DNA of 64,000 bases from a virus, in IMG/VR virus record IMGVR_UViG_3300042465_005589, positions 254,165 through 318,164 of that record; one strand, 5' to 3'. Positions 49,469 through 64,000 of this stretch are shown here, piece after piece. The notes below the pieces were generated by a model. The model worked only from the letters and a program-made list of their open reading frames with translations, was not told where the DNA came from and ran no database searches. The translations under genes and the position numbers were made by a program. Positions within the stretch are counted from its first letter, which is position 1. Each line of letters starts with the position of its first letter.

Positions 49469-52400
49469 ATGTCGTTAAAGATTAACCATTACGATTTTAT
49501 TGAAATTGGTACGTCAGATTTTGATACTTTAATTGAAACCTCCAATGACAATACTGTCGGTATTAGTATTGAACCTATAAAATATTACATAAATAGATTA
49601 CCTGATAAACAGAATATTATTAAAGTCCAAGCGGCATTATCAACAACAGATGGTGAAGTCGATGTGTACTATATTGAAGATTCTAAAATAGAAGAGAATA
49701 ACTTACCTTGGTGGGTTAGAGGAAGTAACTCAATAAATAATCCTCACCCTTTTGCTATTAAAGAATTAGGTGAAGAATTATACAATAGTTTGGTAACTAT
49801 TGAAAAAGTTCCAACAATTAGTTGGGAAACATTAATTAAAAGATATGATGTTGGTTCAATCGGTTATCTAAAGATTGATACTGAAGGTCACGACCATATC
49901 ATCTTCAGAGATTTTTTAAACTATTGTAAAGAACATTCATTTCCAATCCCAAACAAAATAACACTAGAATATCACGATGGTGTGTCAAACAAAGTTGAGA
50001 TTGATAAATTAATATCGGAATTACCTGAATATCAAATTATCAAACACATTAGTGATATTACATTAATGAAACCTCTAATACCGAGAGTAATACATCAAAC
50101 ATATAAAACTAATGATTTACCAACAGAAATAAGTGAGGTAGTTCAAAGGTTAAAAGATATGAATCCAACTTTTGAGTATAAATTCTACAACGATAACGAT
50201 TGTGTTGAATTTATTAAAGAAAATTATGATGAAGAAACTCTTAATCTTTATTTAAGTATTAACCCAAATTATGGGTCGGCTAAATCTGATTTTTTTAGAT
50301 ACCTTTTAATGTATAAAGTTGGTGGTGTTTATTTGGATATTAAAAGTTGTACTACTAAACCTTTGGAAGAAGTTTTATTACCAACCGATGAATATCTATT
50401 AACTCATTGGGAAGGATTGGATTGGGCAGATGAATTAAAATATTATTTTGGCGAATTTCAAAATTGGCATATTATCTGTAAACCAAATCACCCATTTTTA
50501 AAAAGGGTAATTGAAATTGTTAAAGACAATATTAAAAATTATATTGGTGGGTCGGATAAATATTCTGTGTTAAGATTGACAGGTCCAATCGCTTATAGTA
50601 AAGGAATTATTGAACTTATATCTCAACATAAGAAAAATAGTGTTGATTCACCCGTTAGAGAATTTTTATTAGAAAACGAGATTGGGTTACAATATATGTC
50701 AACCACAATACATCATCATAATCTAATTGATAGTTCGTATTCAAAAAGAGAACCTTTAATTTTAAAAGATAAGGTTGAGAAATCATATCTATTATATGCA
50801 ACCGAAAACTATTTGGATGTTGCAAAGATGTGTATTAAATCAATCCGAGAATATAGTGATTTACCAATTTTCTTATATCTTATTAATTCTAATAAAGTTG
50901 TGGATATTAAAGATGTTGCAACCATAAATTGGAATGTAGAATTAGTTGATGATAATTCTGATAGATACATTCAAGAGGGTGACAATTTTTACATTAATAG
51001 AACCAATAAAACGATTTATAACATCTTAATACAAAAACCATTAATCACTAAAGACGTTTTATCTAAATACACTAAAACGGTTGCATTTATTGATTGTGAT
51101 TCAATTGCAACACCATATGTTGATAGAATCTTTGACTTATACGATAATGATAAAGATTACCCTTATTTTGTTGAAGGGATTTATGATTTTCTACACGTAG
51201 GTGAACGAGGTGGTGCTATGACTAGAGATGATATGTCAACCACGTTGGAACATCCGGCGTGTGAATTATTTAATGTTAATCAGTATGTTAGAGAAAAATA
51301 CCGACAAACAGGTTATTATGTTGCAAATGAAAAATGTATTGATTTTTTATACGAATGGTATCAAATGTGTTCTCACCCTGAAGTATTAAATAATATACCA
51401 TATTATGCGGCATATAATGAGGAGACCATCCTAAATGTGTTATTGTGGAAAAAATTAATATTTGATGGATTACCTTACATTTACGCTAACGGAAATTTAG
51501 AATTGATTGATAATATCTATTCAAACTACAATATTAGTGAAGAAAGTTTATGGATTAAGATTCCAAATAAGAAAGATGATTTGTTATTTATTCACGGAGA
51601 AAAGAACATTTTAGAAATGGGTAAAATAATATCAAAAATTAAAAACCATAATAAAGAAAAAATTAAAGTATTATTCTTGGCACCACATCTGTCAACCGGA
51701 GGGATGCCATCATTCCTATTAAAACGAATCGAATCGTTATTAGAATATTATAAAGATAAAACGGAATTATTTGTTGTGGAATATTCTAACCATAGTGACC
51801 ACTATGTGGTTCAAAAAAATAGAATTAAAAAATTAATACCTCCATCACATTTTTGGACGTTAGGTGAAGATAAAAACGAATTAAAGAAAATTATTGAGGA
51901 AAATTATTTTGACATAATTCACTTGGATGAAATGATTGAAGATTTTGATGCTCATAATAAATTATCAAATGAGTTAATGAATTTCATTTATAAAAATGAC
52001 CGAACTTGGAGAGTAGTGGAAACTTGTCATAACGTTGTATTCCAACCGGAAAAAGATAAAGTGTTTCATCCTGAAGCATACGCTTATTGTTCACCATTTC
52101 ATAAAGAATCAACATTCTTGAATATGCCATCGTATGGTGAAGTAATTGAATTTCCGTATAACCCTACAATTGTAATAGATAAAGAAAGTAATAAAGAAAA
52201 ATTAGGTTTAGACCCAAATAAAATTCACATTATAAATGTTGGATTATGGACACCAGGTAAAAATCAAGAAGAAGGTGTTGAGATTGCAAAATTAGTTGAG
52301 GGTATTCACCCTGAATTAGAATTCCATTTCATTGGGAATCAAGCACCTAACTTTCAAGATTATTGGATACCAATTATGAAAGATTTACCATCAAACGTTA

Positions 52401-53812
52401 AAGTATGGGGGGAGAAAGATAATGTTAGTGATTTTATGTGTGCCGCTGATGTATTGATGTTTAACTCAACTTGGGAATGTAATCCGTTAGTATTAAGAGA
52501 AGGTATTTCTTATGGATTAAAAATTTTAGCAAGAAACTTACCTCAATATATGGATATGTTTACACCTTATATAACACAATTGTCAGGTGATATTTTTGAC
52601 ATGAAAAATCAACTTTTAGATTTAATTAAAGATGAAAGTTATTACGAATTCCCAACATATAGAACAAAAGAATTTGCTGAAAAAAATTACGAGTTATACC
52701 AAAAAATATTAAACGAACCAATTAAAAAACAAACCATGATAGATAATGAAGTACAAATATTCCAACATTTTGTTAAAGAACCATTTTTAGAAATAAAAGG
52801 AACTGGAGACAAAGATTACAATGTTAAATTCTTTGATGAAGAAGGTATTTGTCATTATGAGAATACCATAAAACCAAATCATTGGGTTAAATTAAATAGA
52901 AGTTATTACACCAAATGGAGAGCAGTTGTTACTCGAGATAATGAGGTAATTTATGATAACACTATGGATTTAACAAATAAAAGAGTTTACATATCTTTCG
53001 ATAGTAAATCTTTAGGTGACTCGATTGCTTGGATTCCTTATGTTTTAGAATTTAAAAAGAAACACGATTGTAAAGTTATTGTATCTACATTTTGGAATCA
53101 TTTATTTGAAAATGAATATCCTGAAATTGAGTTTGTTGTACCGGGAACGACCGTACATAATCTTTATGCTATGTACACAATCGGATGGTTCTACAATACA
53201 GATAAAGAACCTGTATTACCAAACACAATACCATTACAACAAACAATTACTAACATATTAGGATTAGAATTTAAAGAGATTAAACCTAATATACACAACA
53301 CCATTCACCCAAGACCTTATCAAAAGAAATATGTTACCATAGCAACTAACTCAACAGCAGGGTGTAAATTTTGGACAAGAGAAGGATGGCAATCACTAAT
53401 TAACTATCTTCATAATTTAGGATATAAAGTAATAAACGTATCCAAAGAAGATAATCCGTTTGAAAATGCAAACAAGATTAAAAACACCTCAATTCATCAC
53501 ACAATGAATGTAATTCACCATAGCGAATTCTTTATCGGATTATCTAGTGGTTTATCTTGGTTAGCTTGGGCGTTAGGTAAACAAGTTGTAATGATTTCTA
53601 ACTTTACAAATGAGGAACATGAGTTTATGTTTAATTGTACTAGAATTGTAAATCATTCTGTTTGTAACGGATGTTGGAATAAACCTGAATTTACCTTTGA
53701 TAAAGGTGATTGGAATTGGTGTCCTGTTAATAAAGGAACTGAAAAACAATTTGAATGTCATAAATCGATAACACCGGAAATGGTTATTAATCAAATACAA
53801 CATTTACTATAA
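49469..53812 (+). CDS. Five-domain methyltransferase/glycosyltransferase with autotransporter-type heptosyltransferase domain
   Basis: A 1447-aa protein made of enzyme modules. Residues 1-200 resemble FkbM methyltransferases (YDFIEIGTSDFDTLIE, YLKIDTEGHD). Residues 204-430 are GT32/OCH1-like (IPRVIHQTYKTNDL, DxD in GGVYLDIKS). Residues 435-725 are GT8-like (DxD in FIDCDS). Residues 730-1085 are GT4/GT-B (LAPHLSTGGMPSFLL, NVGLWTPGKNQEEG). Residues 1090-1447 match autotransporter O-heptosyltransferases of the TibC type: FISFDSKSLGD-like SLGDSIAWIPYVLEFKKKH, FFIGLSSGLSWLAWALG, and the iron-finger cysteines CNGC-x15-C-x11-C ending GDWNWCPVNKGTEKQFECHK. The spacing of the first three cysteines equals that of TibC (358, 361, 377). 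It heads the rightward decoration operon. Confidence 0.82.
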   Translation: MSLKINHYDFIEIGTSDFDTLIETSNDNTVGISIEPIKYYINRLPDKQNIIKVQAALSTTDGEVDVYYIEDSKIEENNLPWWVRGSNSINNPHPFAIKELGEELYNSLVTIEKVPTISWETLIKRYDVGSIGYLKIDTEGHDHIIFRDFLNYCKEHSFPIPNKITLEYHDGVSNKVEIDKLISELPEYQIIKHISDITLMKPLIPRVIHQTYKTNDLPTEISEVVQRLKDMNPTFEYKFYNDNDCVEFIKENYDEETLNLYLSINPNYGSAKSDFFRYLLMYKVGGVYLDIKSCTTKPLEEVLLPTDEYLLTHWEGLDWADELKYYFGEFQNWHIICKPNHPFLKRVIEIVKDNIKNYIGGSDKYSVLRLTGPIAYSKGIIELISQHKKNSVDSPVREFLLENEIGLQYMSTTIHHHNLIDSSYSKREPLILKDKVEKSYLLYATENYLDVAKMCIKSIREYSDLPIFLYLINSNKVVDIKDVATINWNVELVDDNSDRYIQEGDNFYINRTNKTIYNILIQKPLITKDVLSKYTKTVAFIDCDSIATPYVDRIFDLYDNDKDYPYFVEGIYDFLHVGERGGAMTRDDMSTTLEHPACELFNVNQYVREKYRQTGYYVANEKCIDFLYEWYQMCSHPEVLNNIPYYAAYNEETILNVLLWKKLIFDGLPYIYANGNLELIDNIYSNYNISEESLWIKIPNKKDDLLFIHGEKNILEMGKIISKIKNHNKEKIKVLFLAPHLSTGGMPSFLLKRIESLLEYYKDKTELFVVEYSNHSDHYVVQKNRIKKLIPPSHFWTLGEDKNELKKIIEENYFDIIHLDEMIEDFDAHNKLSNELMNFIYKNDRTWRVVETCHNVVFQPEKDKVFHPEAYAYCSPFHKESTFLNMPSYGEVIEFPYNPTIVIDKESNKEKLGLDPNKIHIINVGLWTPGKNQEEGVEIAKLVEGIHPELEFHFIGNQAPNFQDYWIPIMKDLPSNVKVWGEKDNVSDFMCAADVLMFNSTWECNPLVLREGISYGLKILARNLPQYMDMFTPYITQLSGDIFDMKNQLLDLIKDESYYEFPTYRTKEFAEKNYELYQKILNEPIKKQTMIDNEVQIFQHFVKEPFLEIKGTGDKDYNVKFFDEEGICHYENTIKPNHWVKLNRSYYTKWRAVVTRDNEVIYDNTMDLTNKRVYISFDSKSLGDSIAWIPYVLEFKKKHDCKVIVSTFWNHLFENEYPEIEFVVPGTTVHNLYAMYTIGWFYNTDKEPVLPNTIPLQQTITNILGLEFKEIKPNIHNTIHPRPYQKKYVTIATNSTAGCKFWTREGWQSLINYLHNLGYKVINVSKEDNPFENANKIKNTSIHHTMNVIHHSEFFIGLSSGLSWLAWALGKQVVMISNFTNEEHEFMFNCTRIVNHSVCNGCWNKPEFTFDKGDWNWCPVNKGTEKQFECHKSITPEMVINQIQHLL

Positions 53813-54489
53813 TGGATTATAATAATTTTGATTGGGGATGGATGGGACAAAGTGAAGAAGGTTTGTTTCATAAAGAACAAATAACTCAAGAAACATTTGT
53901 TGATAAAATATATGAAAAGTTTTTTGAAGTTTCTGAAGGTGATATTGTTTTAGATTTTGGTGCTAGTGTTGGACCATTTACGTATAGTATTTTATCAAAA
54001 AAACCAAAACACGTATATTGTCTTGAACCAAGTGAATTTGAATTTCCCACATTAGTTAATAATACAGTTGGTCATCCGGTAACACCAATATTGAAGGGTG
54101 TCTCAAATACCAACACATATACTGAGGGTAATGACATTTATGGTGGTTCAAAACAAATGGAAGGAATTACTTTTAAAAAACTTTGTGAGTTATATAATTT
54201 AAAAACCATAGATTTTTTAAAAACAGATTGTGAGGGTGGTGAATACGATATTTTTAATGATGAGAATTTTGAATTTATTAAAAATAATGTCAAAAAAATC
54301 ACCGGTGAGTGGCATTTAGGTACACCAATTTTAAAAGAAAAATTTAAAAAATTCAGAGATACTTACTTACAATACTTTATAAATGTTGAGGTGTACTCAA
54401 TAGATGGTGTTAATGTAAAATGGAATTTAATGTCTGACAATTTTTTAGAACACTATACAGAAATAATAATACACATATATAACGTTTAA
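53812..54489 (+). CDS. FkbM-family methyltransferase
   Basis: A 225-aa SAM-dependent enzyme: SAM-binding motif I IVLDFGASVGPFTYSIL (about 45-61), acidic ribose-binding CLEPSEFEF, and the FkbM hallmark IDFLKTDCEGGEYDIF. FkbM proteins O-methylate sugars and other hydroxyl groups, commonly on surface glycans. Its ATG shares a base with the stop of the giant glycosyltransferase (TAATG), so it is tightly coupled. It may cap or modify the glycan made by that enzyme. Confidence 0.85.
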   Translation: MDYNNFDWGWMGQSEEGLFHKEQITQETFVDKIYEKFFEVSEGDIVLDFGASVGPFTYSILSKKPKHVYCLEPSEFEFPTLVNNTVGHPVTPILKGVSNTNTYTEGNDIYGGSKQMEGITFKKLCELYNLKTIDFLKTDCEGGEYDIFNDENFEFIKNNVKKITGEWHLGTPILKEKFKKFRDTYLQYFINVEVYSIDGVNVKWNLMSDNFLEHYTEIIIHIYNV

Positions 54490-54493
54490 TTAA

Positions 54494-55312
54494 ATGAAAC
54501 AAATATTTTTTAACTCTTCCCTACCTAGAAGTGGAAGTACATTAATTCAGAATTTATTAGCTCAAAATCCTGAAATTTACTCAACACCAACATCAGGGTT
54601 GGTAGATTTTGTAATCGCTTGTAAAAACAATTACAATCACTCACAAGCATTCCAAGCTCAAAATCAAGATGAAATGACCAAAGCCTTTGTCGATTTTTGT
54701 CAAGATGGTATGCAAGGTTATTTTAAAAGACTTACTGATAAACCAATCGTAATCGATAAAAGTCGAGAATGGGGAATCAATTATGGTTTATTGGAAATGC
54801 TACAACCAAACCCAAAAATTATTTGTATGGTTAGAGATGTTAGAGCTGTCTATAGTTCAATGGAAAAGAATTTTAGAAAAAACCCTCATAGAGAAAATGG
54901 GATTCAAAGACCGGCAGAATTAATTGGGACAACCTTAAACAAACGTGTTGATATTTGGGCTAGTGGTGTTCCTGTTGGTGTTGCAATTGATAGGTTATTA
55001 GATACCATTCAACAAGGTATTGCCGAAAAAATGTTATTTATTCGTTACGAGGATTTAATGAGTAATCCTGAAGAAGAAATGAGTAGAATATACAATTATT
55101 TAGAACTACCATATTATGAAGGACATGACTTTGAGAATATATCTCAACTAACTCATGAAGATGATAGAGTACATGGGATATTTGGTGACCACCAATTAAG
55201 ACCTAAATTTGAAAGAAAACCGGATGATTACATGGAAGTGTTGGGGTATGAGATATCAATGAACATTAAAAATCATTATAAATGGTTTTATGACTATTTT
55301 GGATACGTATAA
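54494..55312 (+). CDS. Sulfotransferase (PAPS-dependent)
   Basis: A 272-aa protein with the 5'-phosphosulfate-binding loop at residues 11-16 (SSLPRSGSTLIQNLL) and the 3'-phosphate-binding segment CMVRDVRAVYSSMEKN, followed by FIRYEDLMSNPEEEMSRIYN, a standard late motif of the family. It should transfer sulfate from PAPS to a hydroxyl of a carbohydrate, peptide or lipid. The APS kinase gene that makes PAPS begins 12 bases downstream. The acceptor is unknown; phage glycans or host surface sugars are candidates. Confidence 0.88.
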   Translation: MKQIFFNSSLPRSGSTLIQNLLAQNPEIYSTPTSGLVDFVIACKNNYNHSQAFQAQNQDEMTKAFVDFCQDGMQGYFKRLTDKPIVIDKSREWGINYGLLEMLQPNPKIICMVRDVRAVYSSMEKNFRKNPHRENGIQRPAELIGTTLNKRVDIWASGVPVGVAIDRLLDTIQQGIAEKMLFIRYEDLMSNPEEEMSRIYNYLELPYYEGHDFENISQLTHEDDRVHGIFGDHQLRPKFERKPDDYMEVLGYEISMNIKNHYKWFYDYFGYV

Positions 55313-55324
55313 AAAATTTTAATT

Positions 55325-55777
55325 ATGGCAATATATTGGTTTACAGGTCAGCCCGGAGCAGGTAAGACCACATTAGCAAAACAACTTAAAGATTATCTAC
55401 ACCCAAGTAATGTAATGCTTGTTGATGGAGATGACATTAGAGATGTGTTTCAGAATAAAGATTACTCTGAAAATGGCAGAAGAAAAAATATTGAGAAAGC
55501 ACAAGACATCTCATTATTTTTAGATTCAAAAGGATTTGATGTAATAGTTTCATTAGTATCTCCTTATAAAGACCAACGTGATGAATTTAAAAACAAACAT
55601 AATGTTTTAGAGTTTTACATTCACACCGAAGATATTAGAGGAAGAGAAGATTATCACGTATCTAACTATGAACCACCAACTGAAAATTTTGTGGATGTGG
55701 ATACAACAAATGTTATTGAACAAATCTCTATAGGAATAATTATAAATAAAATTAATGAATATAAATTAAATGGATAA
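55325..55777 (+). CDS. cysC: Adenylylsulfate (APS) kinase
   Basis: A 150-aa P-loop kinase: Walker A GQPGAGKTT (8-16), then VDGDDIRDVFQ and SENGRRKNIEKAQDIS, the APS-binding signature of CysC, and VIVSLVSPYKDQRDEFK. It makes PAPS from APS and ATP, the donor for the adjacent sulfotransferase. It is somewhat shorter than bacterial CysC (about 200 aa), lacking N- and C-terminal extensions. Its end overlaps the nucleotidyltransferase gene by 8 bases. Confidence 0.9.
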   Translation: MAIYWFTGQPGAGKTTLAKQLKDYLHPSNVMLVDGDDIRDVFQNKDYSENGRRKNIEKAQDISLFLDSKGFDVIVSLVSPYKDQRDEFKNKHNVLEFYIHTEDIRGREDYHVSNYEPPTENFVDVDTTNVIEQISIGIIINKINEYKLNG

Positions 55778-56180
55778 TTGGGAAAGAAAAACACACGTAC
55801 AAGCAGCATTCGCTTCATCATCGTCAAATAAAAAATATTCAATGTTTGTAGGTAGATGGCAACCGTGGCATCATGGTCATAGAGCATTAATTGACCAACA
55901 ATTGAATAGAGATAAAAATATCCTACTATGTGTTAGAGATGTTGAAATTGATGATAAAAATCCGTTTTCAACAGAATGGGTTATTGAAAACTTAAACAAA
56001 GAATTAAAAGACCTAATTGATGAAGGAAGATTAGTGATTCAGGTTATTCCGGATATAGAAAGTGTTAATATTGGTAGAGGTGTTGGATATGATGTTTATG
56101 AACATTTCCCTCCTGAGGATATTAAAAACATTTCTGCAACAAAAATTAGAGAACAAATGAAAAAAGACGGTAAACTATAA
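55770..56180 (+). CDS. HxGH nucleotidyltransferase-fold protein
   Basis: A 136-aa protein with the cytidylyl/adenylyltransferase signature FVGRWQPWHHGHRALI (HxGH at 34-37) and a C-terminal ISATKIREQM, equivalent to the ISxTxIR motif of this superfamily. ATP sulfurylase, which makes APS, belongs to the same superfamily but is much larger. Here the context (sulfotransferase, APS kinase, DUF2061) hints at a step in sulfate activation, while adjacent heptosyl-type glycosyltransferases would also fit a sugar-nucleotide role. The reaction is not determined. It is overlapped at both ends by neighbours. Confidence 0.75.
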   Translation: MDNWERKTHVQAAFASSSSNKKYSMFVGRWQPWHHGHRALIDQQLNRDKNILLCVRDVEIDDKNPFSTEWVIENLNKELKDLIDEGRLVIQVIPDIESVNIGRGVGYDVYEHFPPEDIKNISATKIREQMKKDGKL

Positions 56181-56395
56181 TGGTAGAAGTAAAACGACAC
56201 ATAGGTAAAGCCGTTAGTTATAGAATGTTAGGGACATTACAAACCTGTATAATCTCATACTTATTTACAGGAAATTTTTTGATTTCAGGTAGTATCGGAT
56301 TAACAGAATTATGTATAAAACCATTAATATATTTCCTACACGAAAGAGTGTGGTATAAATGGATAAAGTTTGGATTAAAAGAAAATAAAGAATAA
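56180..56395 (+). CDS. DUF2061 small membrane protein
   Basis: A 71-aa protein: KRHIGKAVSYRMLGTLQTCI, a membrane segment IISYLFTGNFLISGSIGLTE and a C-terminal FLHERVWYKWI match the DUF2061 pattern (KaxSyRxxGtxxT...HERxW). In bacteria DUF2061 genes are often next to sulfate-assimilation genes such as cysC/cysN/cysD, and it sits next to an APS kinase here too. Inner-membrane location and an unknown role, perhaps sulfate-related, are inferred. Coupled by TAATG with the preceding gene. Confidence 0.8.
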   Translation: MVEVKRHIGKAVSYRMLGTLQTCIISYLFTGNFLISGSIGLTELCIKPLIYFLHERVWYKWIKFGLKENKE

Positions 56396-56396
56396 T

Positions 56397-56432
56397 ATGA
56401 ATGTAATTTTTCAAATCAAACTATTTATATAA
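56397..56432 (+). pseudogene. Duplicated 5' remnant of the GT9 gene
   Basis: ATGAATGTAATTTTTC here closely matches ATGAATGTAATATTTTC at the start of the intact GT9 gene (57143); the fragment encodes MNVIFQIKLFI and a stop against MNVIFSIEGG. It begins 1 base after the DUF2061 stop, the usual spacing for this operon. It thus looks like the original start of the GT9 gene left behind when the GIY-YIG gene inserted. Confidence 0.55.
56421..56430 (+). promoter_or_regulatory. CTATTTATAT box before the GIY-YIG gene
   Basis: The plus strand reads AACTATTTATATAATAAAATAAG, 17 nt before the ATG at 56448. The inserted endonuclease thus carries its own copy of the recurrent box. Confidence 0.5.
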
Positions 56433-56447
56433 TAAAATAAGTTTAAA

Positions 56448-57146
56448 ATGGAAAATAATATTTGTGTTTATTTACATAAAAAACCTAATGGTGATATATT
56501 TTATGTGGGAATTGGGACTAATAAAAGACCTTATGAAAAATTTAGAAAAAATGTATATTGGAAAAATATAACAAATAAATACCCTAATTATATTATTGAA
56601 ATAATTGAAGAAAATTTAACTTGGGAAGATGCCTGTATTATTGAAAAACAATTAATTAGAAAATACGGTAGAAAATGTGATGGTGGTATATTATGTAATA
56701 TAACTTTAGGTGGTGATGGGGTTTATGGTTTAAAACATTCTCAAGAAACTAAAGAAAAATTAAAAAAATTATCAACCGGAAATAAAAATTGTGTTGGATT
56801 TAAACATACTGAAATAACTAAAGTAAATATGAGTAAATCTCATTTAGGTAAAATAACACCAAAAGAAGTTAGAGAAAAAATGTCAAAAACTCATTTAGGT
56901 AGACCAGGTAGAGAATCAGATAAATTAAATGTTAAAAAGGCACATATTAAAAATATAGGTAGAGTTCAAAATGAGGATGAAAAAGAAAAAAGAGCCAAAA
57001 AATTATGTAAACCAATTGAGGTTAATGGTGTAATATATGAATCAATAAAACAATATTCTGAAATAACTAATATTAACCGAAGTAAAGTTTGGCGAAATTT
57101 AAAAGACGAAAAAAATAAAAACTACAAATACATAAATAAAAAATGA
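56448..57146 (+). CDS. GIY-YIG homing endonuclease with NUMOD repeats
   Basis: A 232-aa protein with a GIY-YIG-type catalytic domain (about 1-95: NICVYLHKKPNGDIFYVGIG, EIIEENLTWEDACIIEKQLI, ITLGGDG), then three NUMOD3-like elements (LKHSQETKEKLKK, KHTEITKVNMSKSHLG, TPKEVREKMSKTHLGR), and a NUMOD1-type helix-turn-helix end (IEVNGVIYESIKQYSEITNI). This is the usual layout of free-standing Seg-like phage endonucleases. It separates DUF2061 from the GT9 gene, whose start it overlaps by 4 bases, and is flanked by a short duplication of the GT9 start. Confidence 0.88.
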   Translation: MENNICVYLHKKPNGDIFYVGIGTNKRPYEKFRKNVYWKNITNKYPNYIIEIIEENLTWEDACIIEKQLIRKYGRKCDGGILCNITLGGDGVYGLKHSQETKEKLKKLSTGNKNCVGFKHTEITKVNMSKSHLGKITPKEVREKMSKTHLGRPGRESDKLNVKKAHIKNIGRVQNEDEKEKRAKKLCKPIEVNGVIYESIKQYSEITNINRSKVWRNLKDEKNKNYKYINKK

Positions 57147-58018
57147 ATGTAATATTTTCTATAGAAGGTGGATTAGGAAAATCCATAATGGGTACGGCAG
57201 TATTAAAAGCAATAAAAAAACAATATAGTAAAGCTAACATAATTGTTGTTAGTAGTTATCCGGATGTCTTTATTGGTAATCCAAACGTTAATAAAGTTTT
57301 GACTCACGAAACAATGAGTGGGATATATGAAAAATATATCATGGGTAAAGAAGCAAAAGTATTTGTTTCTGACCCATACTCAACTTCAGATTATATTACC
57401 GAAGAAAAACATCTAATTCAGTTATGGTGTGAAATGTATGGTCTAAATTACAATGGTGAAAAACCTGAATTATTTATAAGTAAAGCCGAAAAACAATACT
57501 TTGAAGGGTTCTATAAGTTAGATAAACCAATTATGGTTATTCAACCTCATGGGGGTGCATTTAACCAACCGTTAAAATATAGTTGGACAAGAGATATACC
57601 TCAACCAATTATGCAAGACATTATAAATCATTTTGCAAATGATTACGCTATCTTACACGTTAAACGAGAAGACCAAATTATTTACGAAAATACGTTCCAA
57701 GCATTAGATTCATTTAGAAGTATTGCTGTATTATTGAGTATGGCAACAAAACGATTATTAATCGATAGTAGTGTTATGCACATTGCGACGGCATTAAATT
57801 TACCATCAGTGGTGACTTGGGTTGGGACAAATCCGGAAGTATTTGGTTTTGATATTCACAATAATATTGTTGCCAATGAACCAACCAAAACACCTGATTT
57901 AAATCATCCACATTATTCTAAATATCTGTTATTCCAAGATATTAGCACTATACCTTATAACGACCTATATGAAGTATTTGATACTCAAAAAATTATAGAA
58001 GCGATTAATCAACAATAA
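57143..58018 (+). CDS. GT9-like glycosyltransferase (heptosyltransferase family)
   Basis: A 291-aa GT-B protein: MNVIFSIEGGLGKSIMGTAV at the N-terminus (GxGD/K-S acceptor-side loop), VIQPHGGAFNQPLKYSW in the donor domain, and LLIDSSVMHIATALNLPSVV with VTWVGTNPEVFGF, the GT9 donor-binding signature (DSSxMHxAxAxxxPxVxxxG). GT9 enzymes transfer heptose or related sugars from ADP- or dTDP-sugars. This compact form resembles the C-terminal heptosyltransferase domain of the giant enzyme in the same operon. It is the last rightward gene before a bidirectional terminator. Confidence 0.82.
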   Translation: MNVIFSIEGGLGKSIMGTAVLKAIKKQYSKANIIVVSSYPDVFIGNPNVNKVLTHETMSGIYEKYIMGKEAKVFVSDPYSTSDYITEEKHLIQLWCEMYGLNYNGEKPELFISKAEKQYFEGFYKLDKPIMVIQPHGGAFNQPLKYSWTRDIPQPIMQDIINHFANDYAILHVKREDQIIYENTFQALDSFRSIAVLLSMATKRLLIDSSVMHIATALNLPSVVTWVGTNPEVFGFDIHNNIVANEPTKTPDLNHPHYSKYLLFQDISTIPYNDLYEVFDTQKIIEAINQQ

Positions 58019-58052: not shown

Positions 58053-61000
58053 TTATTTATTTATTTTATTTTGTAATATTTCAATACCATTCCAATTTTT
58101 AATAGCATCTTTATCTTTTCTTGTTCCTATGATAAGAACGTTGTATTCTAAATCCTCGTTAGCAAATATAGTTACTTTTGTTAAATCTTCATCTACTTTT
58201 CCATAAGCAATTCCAAAACCTTCTTTGGGCGTTACCCAAATTTGAGTGTTTTCATTTAGGAATTTGAAATAATCTGGCAATTCAATTTCAGCAACACCAT
58301 CTACTACTTTAACAACATATCTATAAATATTATCTCCAGCAGTAGGCGATTCAACAAACGAGTGTTGTAAGTAATGAGTTTTGTTTTTTATAGGTTCTGG
58401 GTGCTTAATTCTAAACGTACCACTTGTTTTTGATAATGCTTCAACAAATGTTGTGTTATTCGCAGATGCAGAAAGGTTACTACCAATGATATGTGAGTTA
58501 TAAAAACCAGTTATATTATTATTTGTACCACCTATAATAGAATTATACTTGGCTTTATAACCACTTGAAGAACAAATTGCATTACTCTTACCACCACCAA
58601 TAAAATTAGAACAAGTATATTCAGAATTATATGCAAATATTTGGTTGGATATTCCGCCAGTTATTGTATTATTTTGAGATTCCGTAGCGTAACTTATATT
58701 GTTTATAGCGTTATTATAACCTCCCAAAATAGAGTTACCACAAGTATAAGAAGAATTAGCACTATTTCCACAAATTGAGTTACTCTGACCTCCCCCAATA
58801 ATACTTTTGATATTATGAATCATTCTATTTGTATAACCACCACTAATGGTATTCCAAGTTCCGTAATTTGTATAATTACTTCTACCACCGCCAATTATTG
58901 AATAGTCAGAACAATTAACGTTATATTGACCACCACCAATTGTTGAAAGACCACCAGATGCAGTATTACCACAACCACCACCAATATTTGAAAGAGTACC
59001 AAAAGCAATATTGCCTTGACCTCCACTAATAGTTGATTTACTACCAGAAGCAGTATTAGATTGACCACCACCAACAGTTGAATCACTATTAGAAGCAGTA
59101 TTATTTCTACCACCACTTATTGTTGAAACTAAACCAGAAGCTACATTATATTGACCACCACCAACTGTTGATGAATTGCCAGAAGCGGTATTAGGAGCTG
59201 AATAATAAGCAGAATTATAAAAATTTAATCCGCCACCACTTACTGTTGAACCAATACCAGAAGCAACATTTGATTGACCACCACCAACTGTTGAACGACC
59301 ACCAGAAGCACTATTTTGATAACCACCTCCTATTGTTGCATATGAACTTGAAGCAGTATTATTAAAACCTCCACCAACTGTTGAACGATAACCAGAAGCA
59401 GTATTTAATCTACCCCCACTAACTGTAGAATAACCATTGGAAGCAATATTACCACAACCACCTCCAACTGTTGAATAATTACTTGAAGCAGTATTATTTC
59501 TACCACCACCAATTGTTGCGTATTGATTTGAAGCAATATTACCACAACCACCTCCAATTGTGGCATAATTAGAAGCAGTATTTTGATAACCACCAGAAAC
59601 TGTTGAAAAACTACCATAAGAAGTGTTACATCGACCACCACCAATTGTTGAACAAGGACCTGAGGCGGTATTACATAAACCACCAGCAATTACCCCTAAA
59701 GTTCCGTTAACAGAATTACTATCTCCACCACCAATAAAACCTTTTACACAAATAATACTATTTGAAATACCTCCACCAATTGTGGAGTATGATGCTTTAC
59801 TACAATTTAATTTACCACCACCAATCGTTCCAAAAGTTGATGCTGTTGAACGGTTCTGTTTTCCACCACTTATGGTTGAACCTCCCGAATCATTTTGAAC
59901 AAAATTATCGGAACCACCACCAATGAAAGATATCTCACCTTCCGAGCAGTTTCTATAACCTCCACCTATTGTTGATAATCTTCCTGCGTTAAGACAAGTA
60001 ATAGCGCCTGTCAAATTTCCCGTTGTTACATTAAATGTTCCACCTGATGAATTATGTCCAATACCACCACCAATCGTTACACCTAAAGAGCAACATTCGT
60101 TTGTAGGCGATTGAATTATATTTCTTTGACCACCAGAGATTATAGAGTGTCTTGAATTTGTAATATTACAAAAACCTCCACCAACTGTTGAATATGCCCC
60201 TGATGTAGTATTTTGAAAACCACCACCAATTGTTGAATATTGACAACAAGCTGTGTTAGATTTGCCACCACCAATAAATGAGAAAACACCACTAACTGTG
60301 TTACATCGACCACCACCAATTGTTGAACTATTGCCAGTAGCAATATTAACACTACCACCCCCTACTGTTGATTGATAACTACAAGCAGTATTGTTTTGTC
60401 CACCACCAATTGTTGAACTACTACCCCAAACAGTGTTAGATTTACCACCTCCAATTGTTGCAAAACCAATAGAAGGATTTGCAACATTACAATAACCACC
60501 TCCAATTGTATTACCACCAGACGCACCATAAACTACCAAAGAGTTTGTATAAATAAGGTTACAATTACCACCAGCAATAACATCCCCAATTTTTGGGTAA
60601 GCATTATTATAATTTTGTGATGGAAATATTCTATTATATTTACCACCACCAATAAATGAAAAATAACCAGACGCCAAATTACTACAACCACCACCTATTG
60701 TTGAATAATTACAAGAAGCAGTATTAATAAAACCACCACCAACTGTTGAAGCAATATTTGAAGCAATATTATCATAACCACCGCCAATTGTTGAATAAGT
60801 ATTAGAAGCAGTATTAGCTTGACCACCACCAATTGTTGAACGAGTACCAGAAGCGATATTAGTAACACCACCACCAATAAAAGAATAAGCACCTGTTGCA
60901 CAGTTTCTAAATCCTCCACCAATTGTTGATAATCTACCAGCATTACAACAAGCAATCGTTCCGGTTAAAGTTCCTGTAGTCGCATTAAATGTTCCACCTG

Positions 61001-64000
61001 ATGTATTGTGACCAATACCACCACCGATTGTTACACCTAACGAACAACATTCGTTTGTTGGTGATTGAATTATATTTCTATGTCCACCACCAATAAATGA
61101 CATTCTAGCGTTTGTTCTATTACAATATCCACCAGATATTGTTGAGGTATTTCCAGAAGTATTATTTCTAAATCCTCCACCAATAAACCCACAACGAGCA
61201 TTGTTTACATTACAAGAACCACCAACAACTGTTGAATCATAACAAGAAGAGGTGTTAAAACGACCCCCGCTAACAGTTGAAAAACATCCTGATGCTGTAT
61301 TGCAACAACCTCCACCAACTGTTGCTCGTCCATTAGAAGCAGTATTATATAAACCACCCCCTACTGTTGAAGAGTAACAAGAAGAAACATTACATTGTCC
61401 TCCACCAACGGTTGCACGACTACAAGAAGCGGTATTCCATACTCCTCCTCCAATTGTTGAATAAGCCCCTCCAGAACAATTTAATGACCCACCACCAATT
61501 GTTGCCCCTGTTATAGAAGCATAATTACAATATCCACCAGCAATTGTTGAATAGTTAGCCGTTGCACGGTTTCTAAATCCACCACCTATGGTTGATAATC
61601 TACCACCTTCAAAACAAGTAATTGTACCTGATAAAATACCTGTTGATGTTGTAAATGTCCCTCCGGATGTGTTATGTCCAATACCTCCACCAATAGTTGC
61701 ACCTAAAGAACAACATTCGTTTGGTGTTGATAGAAGTATATTTCTTTGACCACCACCAATTGTTGAGAATCTAGAATTTAAAATATTACGACATCCTCCA
61801 TTAATTATTGAATAATTACCACGAGATGAGTTAAAGCTACCACCACCAATAAATGTATAATCACCTATGGCACAGTTTCTAAAACCACCGACAATAGTTG
61901 ATAATTTACCTGCATCACAACAAGCAATCGTTCCGGTTAAAGTTCCTGTAGTCGCATTAAATGTTCCACCTGATGTATTGTGACCAATACCTCCACCGAT
62001 TGTTACCCCTAAAGAACAACATTCATTTGTTGGTGATTGGATTACATTTCTTTGACCTCCACCAATAAATGAGAATCTAGCATTTGTCGTATTTCCACTA
62101 CCTCCTAAAGATGCGGAATAATTTCCTGATGCAGTATTTCCCACACCACATCTAATTGATGAGTTAGAACAAGTTCCTGTTATAATAACCGCAGATGAAC
62201 CAACATTTATACCTGAAGTTCCACTTGTACCTCCGGTACCATTCGTTCCCGAAGTTCCTGATGTTGCACTTGTACCTGATGTACCGCTAGTTCCCGTTGT
62301 TCCTGAAGTTCCACTTGTACCTCCGGTACCATTCGTTCCCGAAGTTCCTGATGTTGCACTTGTACCTGATGTACCGCTAGTTCCCGTTGTTCCGGAAGTT
62401 CCACTTGTACCTCCGGTACCATTCGTTCCTGATGTTCCTGAAGTTCCACTTGTACCTGAAGTACCGCTAGTCCCTGTTGTTCCGGAAGTTCCTGATGTTG
62501 CACTTGTACCTGATGTACCGCTAGTTCCCGTTGTTCCTGAAGTTCCACTTGTACCTCCGGTACCATTCGTTCCTGATGTTCCTGAAGTTCCACTTGTACC
62601 TGAAGTACCGCTAGTCCCTGTTGTTCCGGAAGTTCCTGATGTTGCACTTGTACCTGATGTACCGCTAGTTCCCGTTGTTCCGGAAGTTCCACTTGTACCT
62701 CCGGTACCATTCGTTCCCGAAGTTCCTGATGTTGCACTTGTACCTGAAGTTCCTGAAGTACCGCTTGTCCCTGAAGTTCCTGAAGTACCATCTGTACCGC
62801 TAGTTCCCGAAGTACCATCTGTACCGCTAGTTCCTGATGAACCACTTGTACCTGAGGTACCTGTAGTACCACTTGTTCCACTTGCTCCGTTAACACCTGA
62901 AGAACCGCTAGTTCCTGATGTTCCACTTGTACCTCCGGTACCATTCGTTCCCGAAGTTCCCGTTGTTCCTGAAGTTCCACTTGTACCTCCGGTACCATTC
63001 GTTCCCGAAGTTCCTGATGTTGCACTTGTACCTGAAGTACCGCTAGTTCCTGTTGTTCCTGATGTTCCTGATGTTCCTGATGTTCCTGAAGAACCACTTG
63101 AACCTGAAGTTCCACTAGTCCCTGACGAACCGCTTGAACCTGAACTTCCACTAGTACCTGATGAACCACTTGAGCCAGATGTACCTGAAGTTCCACTAGT
63201 CCCTGACGAACCTGATGTACCCGAAGTCCCACTAGTCCCTGAGATAAATGGTGATAATGATGTTGTTACTTGAGAAACTGTAGCATCCTCAAAATAACAA
63301 GTCATTGTTTTCGATGCTAAATCACGAGCATAAAATTTAACAACAATTCTATCTGTTACAGACACATTTGTTGCTGGTACTGGTACTGAAAATAAATAAA
63401 GTTCAATTACAGTACCTTCAGTTATTGAATGTGGTACTACACTATTTGAGGCAATTAATGTTTCAGTACCACCTGTAGTTCTAACATAAATCTCAGCATA
63501 TATTTTCGGTGTACCTCCATTTGAACTCATACTCACATATTGCTCAAAATTCCAATTACCCGCAGGTATTGTTGTTACACTTGGGTCATTAGATATTGTC
63601 GCAAATGAACCAATAAATTGGTTCCCTCCACCTGTCGCGGTTAAGGTTGTTCCAGCACCAATATAGATATCTCTATCCATCACATAATATGTTGGAATTG
63701 TAGATGCCGACGATGGGTTAAAATAATATACTAATCCCGTTGAAAATCCATCTTGCCCTGACGTTCCTGACGAACCACTTGTTCCACTAGAACCTGATGT
63801 ACCACTTGAGCCAGATGTTCCCGAAGAACCACTTGAACCTGACGTACCCGAACTACCGCTTGAGCCAGATGTACCTGACGAACCACTTGTTCCACTAGAA
63901 CCTGATGTACCACTTGAGCCAGATGTTCCCGAAGAACCACTTGAACCTGACGTACCCGAACTACCGCTTGAGCCAGATGTACCTGACGAACCACTTGAAC
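58053..64000 (-). CDS. Giant collagen-like/YadA-like tail fibre, N-terminus beyond the window
   Basis: The frame stays open to the right edge, so the ATG near 63683 is internal and at least 1982 residues are encoded. From the N-terminal side: collagen-like Gly-x-y repeats (GSS/GTS, 63740-64000); a beta domain (63240-63735, with [20 protein letters not shown]); a second Gly-Thr-Ser shaft (62208-63240); and several dozen units of about 17 residues of the type STIGGGxxNTASGxx (about 58500-62150), a YadA-head-like left-handed beta-roll. The C-terminal 120 residues ([34 protein letters not shown]) resemble C-terminal tips or chaperones of fibres in Bacteroidetes phages. It is probably a trimeric receptor-binding fibre and by far the longest surface protein here. 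Confidence 0.85.
58500..62150 (-). repeat. YadA-like beta-roll repeat array
   Basis: Units of about 51 bp code for xSTIGGGxxNTASGxx-type repeats, each ending near an Asn-Thr-Ala-Ser or Cys-Asn turn. A longer module containing [17 protein letters not shown] is inserted four times (plus-strand CAACATTC marker near 60088, 61048, 61706 and 62013), each with a following TCACC or TCACL-type cysteine pair or single. Units are diversified, not identical. Confidence 0.85.
62208..63240 (-). repeat. Collagen-like Gly-Thr-Ser shaft repeat
   Basis: Nine-base [12 protein letters not shown] codon triplets are arranged in higher-order direct repeats. A 90-bp unit is repeated at 62211-62300 and 62301-62390, and a 144-bp unit recurs (marker GTACCGCTAGTCCCTG at 62461 and 62605). 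There is no proline at all, unlike animal collagen. Confidence 0.88.
63766..63996 (-). repeat. Perfect 108-bp tandem duplication in the fibre shaft
   Basis: The 108 bases at 63781-63888 are identical to 63889-63996, with identity also extending 15 bases to the left of each. It encodes 36 residues of Gly-Ser/Thr-Ser triplets and probably arose by a recent duplication. Confidence 0.9.

Follow-up and report, generated by a model that had tools for sequence, protein, structure and literature searches.

Three small consecutive genes of a virus, for a shortened putative APS kinase, an HxGH nucleotidyltransferase (NTase) and a DUF2061 protein, probably form (a probability of about 0.78) a compact module that makes PAPS and feeds it to the sulfotransferase encoded just upstream, with the NTase as a candidate ATP sulfurylase by its predicted reaction. 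The genes lie in a window of 64 kb that makes up the final part of a 318-kb virus record. In the proposed route, the NTase would carry out the reaction of ATP sulfurylase and move AMP from ATP onto sulfate (ATP + sulfate = APS + PPi), using a NadM-related core of about 115 residues instead of Sat or CysDN. The kinase would turn APS into PAPS by phosphorylating its 3'-OH, and the sulfotransferase would then transfer the sulfuryl group of PAPS to an acceptor, which is probably a glycan made by glycosyltransferases encoded nearby. The DUF2061 protein may act as an auxiliary membrane protein.

Inspection of the open reading frames confirmed the four genes as one tight run, all on the plus strand (Table 1). 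The claim of an earlier note on this DNA that the genes are tightly coupled, the last three overlapping by 1 to 8 bases, held: the kinase and NTase genes overlap by 8 bases, the NTase and DUF2061 genes by 1 base (TAATG), and 12 bases separate the sulfotransferase gene from that of the kinase. Upstream, the run starts with the large glycosyltransferase protein, which probably builds the glycan that would become sulfated, and continues through the FkbM methyltransferase almost without gaps into the cassette, the latter gene ending 4 bases ahead of that of the sulfotransferase. The methyltransferase is a probable part of the modification operon and is also kept beside the cassette in L001-L003, L041 and L046-L048.

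Table 1 Genes of the cassette and its surroundings in the window
Feature	Position	Strand	Length	Profile matches
FkbM + glycosyltransferase multi-domain protein	49469-53812	+	1447 aa	PF05050, PF04488, PF00534, PF01075
FkbM-family methyltransferase	53812-54489	+		TIGR01444 40.5 bits, above cut-off
Sulfotransferase (Sulfotransfer_3)	54494-55312	+	272 aa	PF13469 1.5e-22, PF00685 2.3e-15
Minimal APS kinase (predicted), shortened lid	55325-55777	+	150 aa	PF01583 5.5e-17
HxGH nucleotidyltransferase (NTase), candidate minimal ATP sulfurylase	55770-56180	+	136 aa	PF01467 3e-5
DUF2061 small membrane protein	56180-56395	+	71 aa	PF09834 5.6e-19
Heptosyltransferase-like protein (GT9)	57143-58018	+		PF01075 3.4e-5

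Judged by its sequence, predicted fold and conserved residues, the kinase is a putative APS kinase. It scores 62.6 bits against PF01583 (cut-off 21.1), and this family was matched at E ≤ 0.1 by all 41 relatives in the kinase alignment A3. A profile built from A3 retrieved APS kinases first from the PDB (2.8e-20), other chains scoring lower or, like adenylate kinase 9, matching over the P-loop part alone. Of its AlphaFold model (pLDDT 91), the top 44 Foldseek matches were APS kinases or APS-kinase domains (5e-9, TM 0.80-0.87). The PF01583 match spans only positions 4-106 of the 152 in the profile, and the lid half is therefore reduced: the lid is about 16 residues shorter and does not have the full-length form (KGLYKKARAG...FTGID). 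As the protein also stays at 65 bits against the apsK equivalog TIGR00455 (cut-off 138.7), it is a variant of the APS-kinase family rather than a standard equivalog. The substrate-site set D36, R39, Y47, R52, N55 and P80 (DGDxxR, F/Y, R, N, SPY) is present in the window kinase; D36, R39, R52 and P80 are invariant among the 41 relatives, all of which have F or Y at position 47. We take the counterparts of these positions in PAPSS1 to be the catalytic Asp, the APS-binding Arg residues and the adenine-stacking Phe. In a more divergent marine subfamily NADExR replaces DGDxxR, and some of its members (L219, L285, L287) keep the APS-kinase hallmark DLGFS.

By sequence and modelled fold the NTase belongs to the HxGH class, which leaves its acceptor unnamed. 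Its motifs are GRWQPWHHGH, GRGVGY and ISATKIR. The members in alignment A2 form a tight family in which GRxQPxHxxH, R56, NP, P94, GR-x-x-GY and, within ISATKIR, the S and the R never vary; the catalytic set G28, R29, Q31, H34, H37, R56, N64, P65, R103, S122 and R127 is likewise invariant. The nearest relative is NadM of the archaeal type and of phage NadM-Nudix proteins, with which GRxQPxHxGH is shared: against solved structures the family profile reached high significance for NadM only (4e-11), and the NCBIfam NadM models match every member. The likeness to NMN adenylyltransferase is concentrated in the first 70-80 or so residues, and the window protein falls below the NadM equivalog cut-offs (34.9 vs 397 for NF003786, 30 vs 181 for TIGR01527). 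Structure comparison was tried as a way of picking the acceptor and rejected, as Foldseek matched the model (pLDDT 91.5) to NadM, then PPAT and then ATP sulfurylase without a decision among them.

With NadM as the best profile and the best structure match, the pair could be read as serving NAD salvage in the manner of NadR, the kinase phosphorylating nicotinamide riboside and the NTase being an NMN adenylyltransferase; the fused copy in phage Bhz60, which adjoins a gene with a NADAR domain, would fit. Such a role is nevertheless quite improbable. The kinase is of the APS-kinase family, unlike that of NadR, and in the alignment NadM has about 20 residues more between the NMN-side strand and ISxTxxR, the acceptor region being replaced in the NTase (GR[G/D]VGY). 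True phage NadM (NadM-Nudix) genes adjoin that of nicotinamide phosphoribosyltransferase (NAMPT), which was found beside the pair in none of the loci seen; the only other match in the NAMPT check, L282, is a weakly scoring frame of 383 residues that is probably a NadM-Nudix protein. NAD salvage would also leave the aprMBA, cysHI and sulfotransferase neighbours unexplained.

Two enzymes, Sat and CysDN, are known to activate sulfate, and they are unrelated to each other. With Sat (PF01747) the NTase shares an HxGH-class fold, a late ISxTxxR, GR[D/G] and a weak local profile similarity: in 32 of the 41 NTase members PF01747 comes second among the Pfam families, always weakly (best 6e-4), and the window protein matches it at E 0.0033 with 17.3 bits, under the gathering cut-off of 24.3. 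Among the viral records tested, none had a PF01747 match above the cut-off. The NTase differs from Sat in having no further domains and in carrying GR[WF]QP (41 of 41 members) where Sat has QTRNPxHxxH. With CysDN it would share the expected reaction and the place in a sulfate-assimilation operon, but the folds are unrelated: the NTase has neither a PP-loop ATPase nor a GTPase, and profile searches of the window protein gave no match to PP-loop CysD.

It is the genomic context that makes the NTase most likely an ATP sulfurylase candidate of a type other than Sat. Of the two readings that had been offered for this 136-residue protein, a minimal APS-forming enzyme or a sugar nucleotidyltransferase, context favours the first and lends little to the second. 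SAR11 bacteria are the most abundant in the ocean, and a genome scan found the NTase family in Pelagibacterales, where 84 of 117 sampled genomes encode it and 6 of 117 encode Sat; CysD was found in none of the 31 SAR11 genomes tested. Of 399 Pseudomonadota genomes in a generic scan of the phylum, only 2 had the NTase. Mutual exclusion of NTase and Sat was considered and rejected, since most Sat-bearing SAR11 genomes carry the NTase too. Co-occurrence of NTase and sulfotransferase in SAR11 was set aside as weak proof (sulfotransferase in 63 of 84 genomes with the NTase vs 20 of 33 without). Part of the Pelagibacterales pairs lie in a cluster of one-carbon/glycine-betaine type, with genes named by eye.

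In four genomes (L289-L292) the genes cysG-cysI-cysH-DUF2061-kinase-NTase form a single run, in which CysH, of the CC...CxxC type, and CysI pass their NCBIfam cut-offs. Because this run requires activated sulfate and the kinase-NTase pair is its only candidate, the pair is expected to activate sulfate. Neither Sat nor CysD was found in G018, the one of these genomes that was checked for both, and no Sat in two others (G707, G795), absences that are provisional in draft genomes; Sat is present in G591, in a glycan cluster.

In 26 SAR11 loci the NTase lies beside aprA-aprB-aprM, where AprA (995 bits) and AprB (189 bits) exceed their equivalog cut-offs. In L249-L251 and L255-L271 the NTase gene and p116-aprA are convergent; in L132, L134 and L143-L145 the NTase gene reads in the same direction as aprM-aprB-aprA and lies just 5' of it, with no kinase gene nearby; a third arrangement, kinase-NTase-TenA-like-aprM-aprB-aprA, is seen in L141. 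On the NTase tree, which is built from few columns and weakly resolved, linkage to apr needs at least three separate placements. An APS-converting enzyme is expected beside aprBA and the kinase is sometimes absent; the NTase would therefore be the one that handles APS. The aprBA and cysHI contexts thus point to an NTase that handles APS in the manner of an ATP sulfurylase; the aprBA context could also accommodate an APS:phosphate adenylyltransferase, which biosynthesis could not. The L132 cluster also encodes a sulfoacetaldehyde acetyltransferase (Xsc, over cut-off), a CysQ-like protein and a sulfite exporter of the TauE type, and so outlines a route from sulfonate via sulfite to APS with the NTase in place of sat. 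A conserved protein of 116 residues that matches no Pfam family adjoins aprA in all SAR11 apr loci seen (L132:11603-11953, L249:6019-6369) and is possibly an accessory protein of AprBA.

The apr loci without a nearby kinase also bear on whether the phage boosts the second step alone, its kinase using APS made by the host and the NTase being accessory or regulatory. Hosts with CysDN or Sat would already supply APS, and canonical APS kinases occur in phages without the NTase (L064, L065). Against this stand those apr loci and the NTase itself, which is the better conserved partner and has its catalytic set intact, so that such a role is highly improbable. The window clade forms its own branch on the weakly resolved NTase tree, apart from the apr- and cys-linked members; homology, the common DUF2061 partner and its own sulfotransferase tie it to the sulfur contexts. 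In an alphaproteobacterium (L284) the pair is divergent from a TPR-sulfotransferase gene.

The neighbourhood survey that the earlier note had proposed found both kinase-NTase pairing and sulfotransferase linkage in viral loci. The arrangement of the cassette is not due to chance, since in 47 of 52 dereplicated viral loci kinase and NTase are encoded side by side or as one fused protein; PHROG 10255 is itself a fusion of this kind. In 32 viral loci (not dereplicated) the kinase start is -10 to +45 bases from the end of the sulfotransferase gene, and 22 of these junctions overlap, mostly by 4 bases. The placement of the sulfotransferase gene is one-sided: it lies upstream, most often as the gene just preceding the pair, and the sole downstream motif match (L063) is a spurious reading frame. 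In L030 a sulfotransferase-like frame that matches no Pfam family lies downstream of the NTase. The pair-linked sulfotransferases are of more than one type (PF03567 in L036), and in L009-L011 and L013 a sulfotransferase is present in the record, far from the pair. Whole-record searches of the complete phages DLP6 and Bhz60, which carry the fused pair, found no PF13469 sulfotransferase, a point against the proposed route.

The window sulfotransferase scores 81.4 bits against PF13469 (cut-off 27), the sole match in the 318-kb record, and has PAPS-binding motifs of the 5'-PSB (PRSGST, residue 11) and 3'-PB (RDVRAVYSS, residue 114) kinds. With an APS kinase next to a sulfotransferase that carries such motifs, the phage set is therefore most simply a PAPS supply line, and the idea that the phage provides PAPS for its neighbouring sulfotransferase gains support from the independent genomic context.

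Glycosyltransferases surround the cassette, and the pair might instead activate another small molecule or sugar for glycan decoration, the kinase giving X-P and the NTase NDP-X, much as for phosphoramidate or CDP-alditols. A HAD-type phosphatase encoded between kinase and NTase in L025, L030, L036 and relatives could belong to such a pathway, yet is equally readable as a PAP phosphatase. The SAR11 clusters for sulfite oxidation and sulfate assimilation hold the pair without glycan genes, and the kinase retains its APS-kinase substrate-site residues; an NDP-X product is thus unlikely. The inserted HAD protein has 112 residues (L025, 5663-6001) and a weak match to PNKP 3'-phosphatase (4e-4); as a possible PAP 3'-phosphatase it would recycle the by-product left by the sulfotransferase.

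Some phage pairs adjoin metK or thyA/DHFR. These neighbours might point to a pair that serves only to modify DNA or in nucleotide metabolism, a reading that was rejected as it leaves the apr and cys contexts unexplained. In one phage lineage (L053, L058, L196, L199) the fused pair lies beside a gene that by eye resembles S-adenosylmethionine synthetase, and no sulfotransferase was seen near it. In the marine phage loci L146, L167, L059 and L170 the sulfotransferase-kinase-NTase set occurs near structural genes together with genes that by eye resemble 2OG-Fe(II) oxygenases, which suggests hydroxylation and sulfation of virion proteins.

The DUF2061 protein of the window scores 68.8 bits against PF09834 (cut-off 23.1) and has a hydrophobic core at about residues 13-53. 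A DUF2061 gene lies near the kinase-NTase pair in 13 of the 52 dereplicated viral loci, and in L289-L292 a relative sits between cysH and the pair; the window protein and its close relatives are about 32-35 % identical to the cys-operon proteins (E about 1e-6 to 1e-7). These runs agree with the earlier assertion that DUF2061 is linked to sulfate assimilation. In the portion of the open-licence PMC literature that was available, no relevant paper on DUF2061 was found.

The reactions proposed here are known ones; what is apparently new is the NTase as a minimal enzyme class. The known system most like the phage pair is the animal PAPS synthetase (PAPSS), which has the same order of kinase and NTase, is a fusion as in some phages and bacteria, and would likewise provide PAPS for sulfotransferases. 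PAPSS joins APS kinase to an ATP sulfurylase of the Sat type in about 620 residues, whereas the phage pair has about 266, with a shortened kinase lid and an NTase that by Pfam cut-off and motif is not of the Sat type. Phage-borne sulfur-activation genes are already known as viral cysC and cysH auxiliary metabolic genes; the reports, as far as available, deal with single canonical genes, and none was found that names the NTase or the trio. Nor did the available part of the open-licence PMC literature yield a paper naming the NTase, the trio or a third ATP sulfurylase, an earlier description elsewhere being possible.

The NTase family is quite probably a third, minimal class of ATP sulfurylase, which in phages would be part of a PAPS synthase of about 270 residues with a mini kinase, and in SAR11 would be the missing sat, turning sulfite-derived APS into ATP and sulfate. 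A third and much smaller sulfate-activating enzyme would alter the annotation of sulfur metabolism. With such an enzyme the phage would also need no sulfate assimilation by the host, as its own proteins would cover every step between ATP plus sulfate and a sulfated component of virion or host. The fate of APS in SAR11 has been open because these bacteria were described with APS reductase and without sat or cysDNC; in Ca. P. ubique AprBA is present and sat and cysDNCHIJ are absent (PMC5069961). The pair or the NTase occupies the spot of the missing sat beside the SAR11 APS reductase.

Two further features of the window lie downstream of the cassette. In close relatives such as L001 the GT9 heptosyltransferase-like gene directly follows DUF2061. 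In the window a GIY-YIG/NUMOD3 homing endonuclease gene (56397-57146), absent from L001, lies between the two; a stub of the heptosyltransferase gene at 56398 consists of its first codons (ATGAATGTAATTTTTCAAAT), and the full copy has its own start at 57143. Further on, the minus strand (58053-63683) encodes a protein of 1876 residues containing long GTSGTSG repeats and numerous GGG(x)N repeats, which is probably tail-fibre or adhesin-like and a possible carrier of the glycan.
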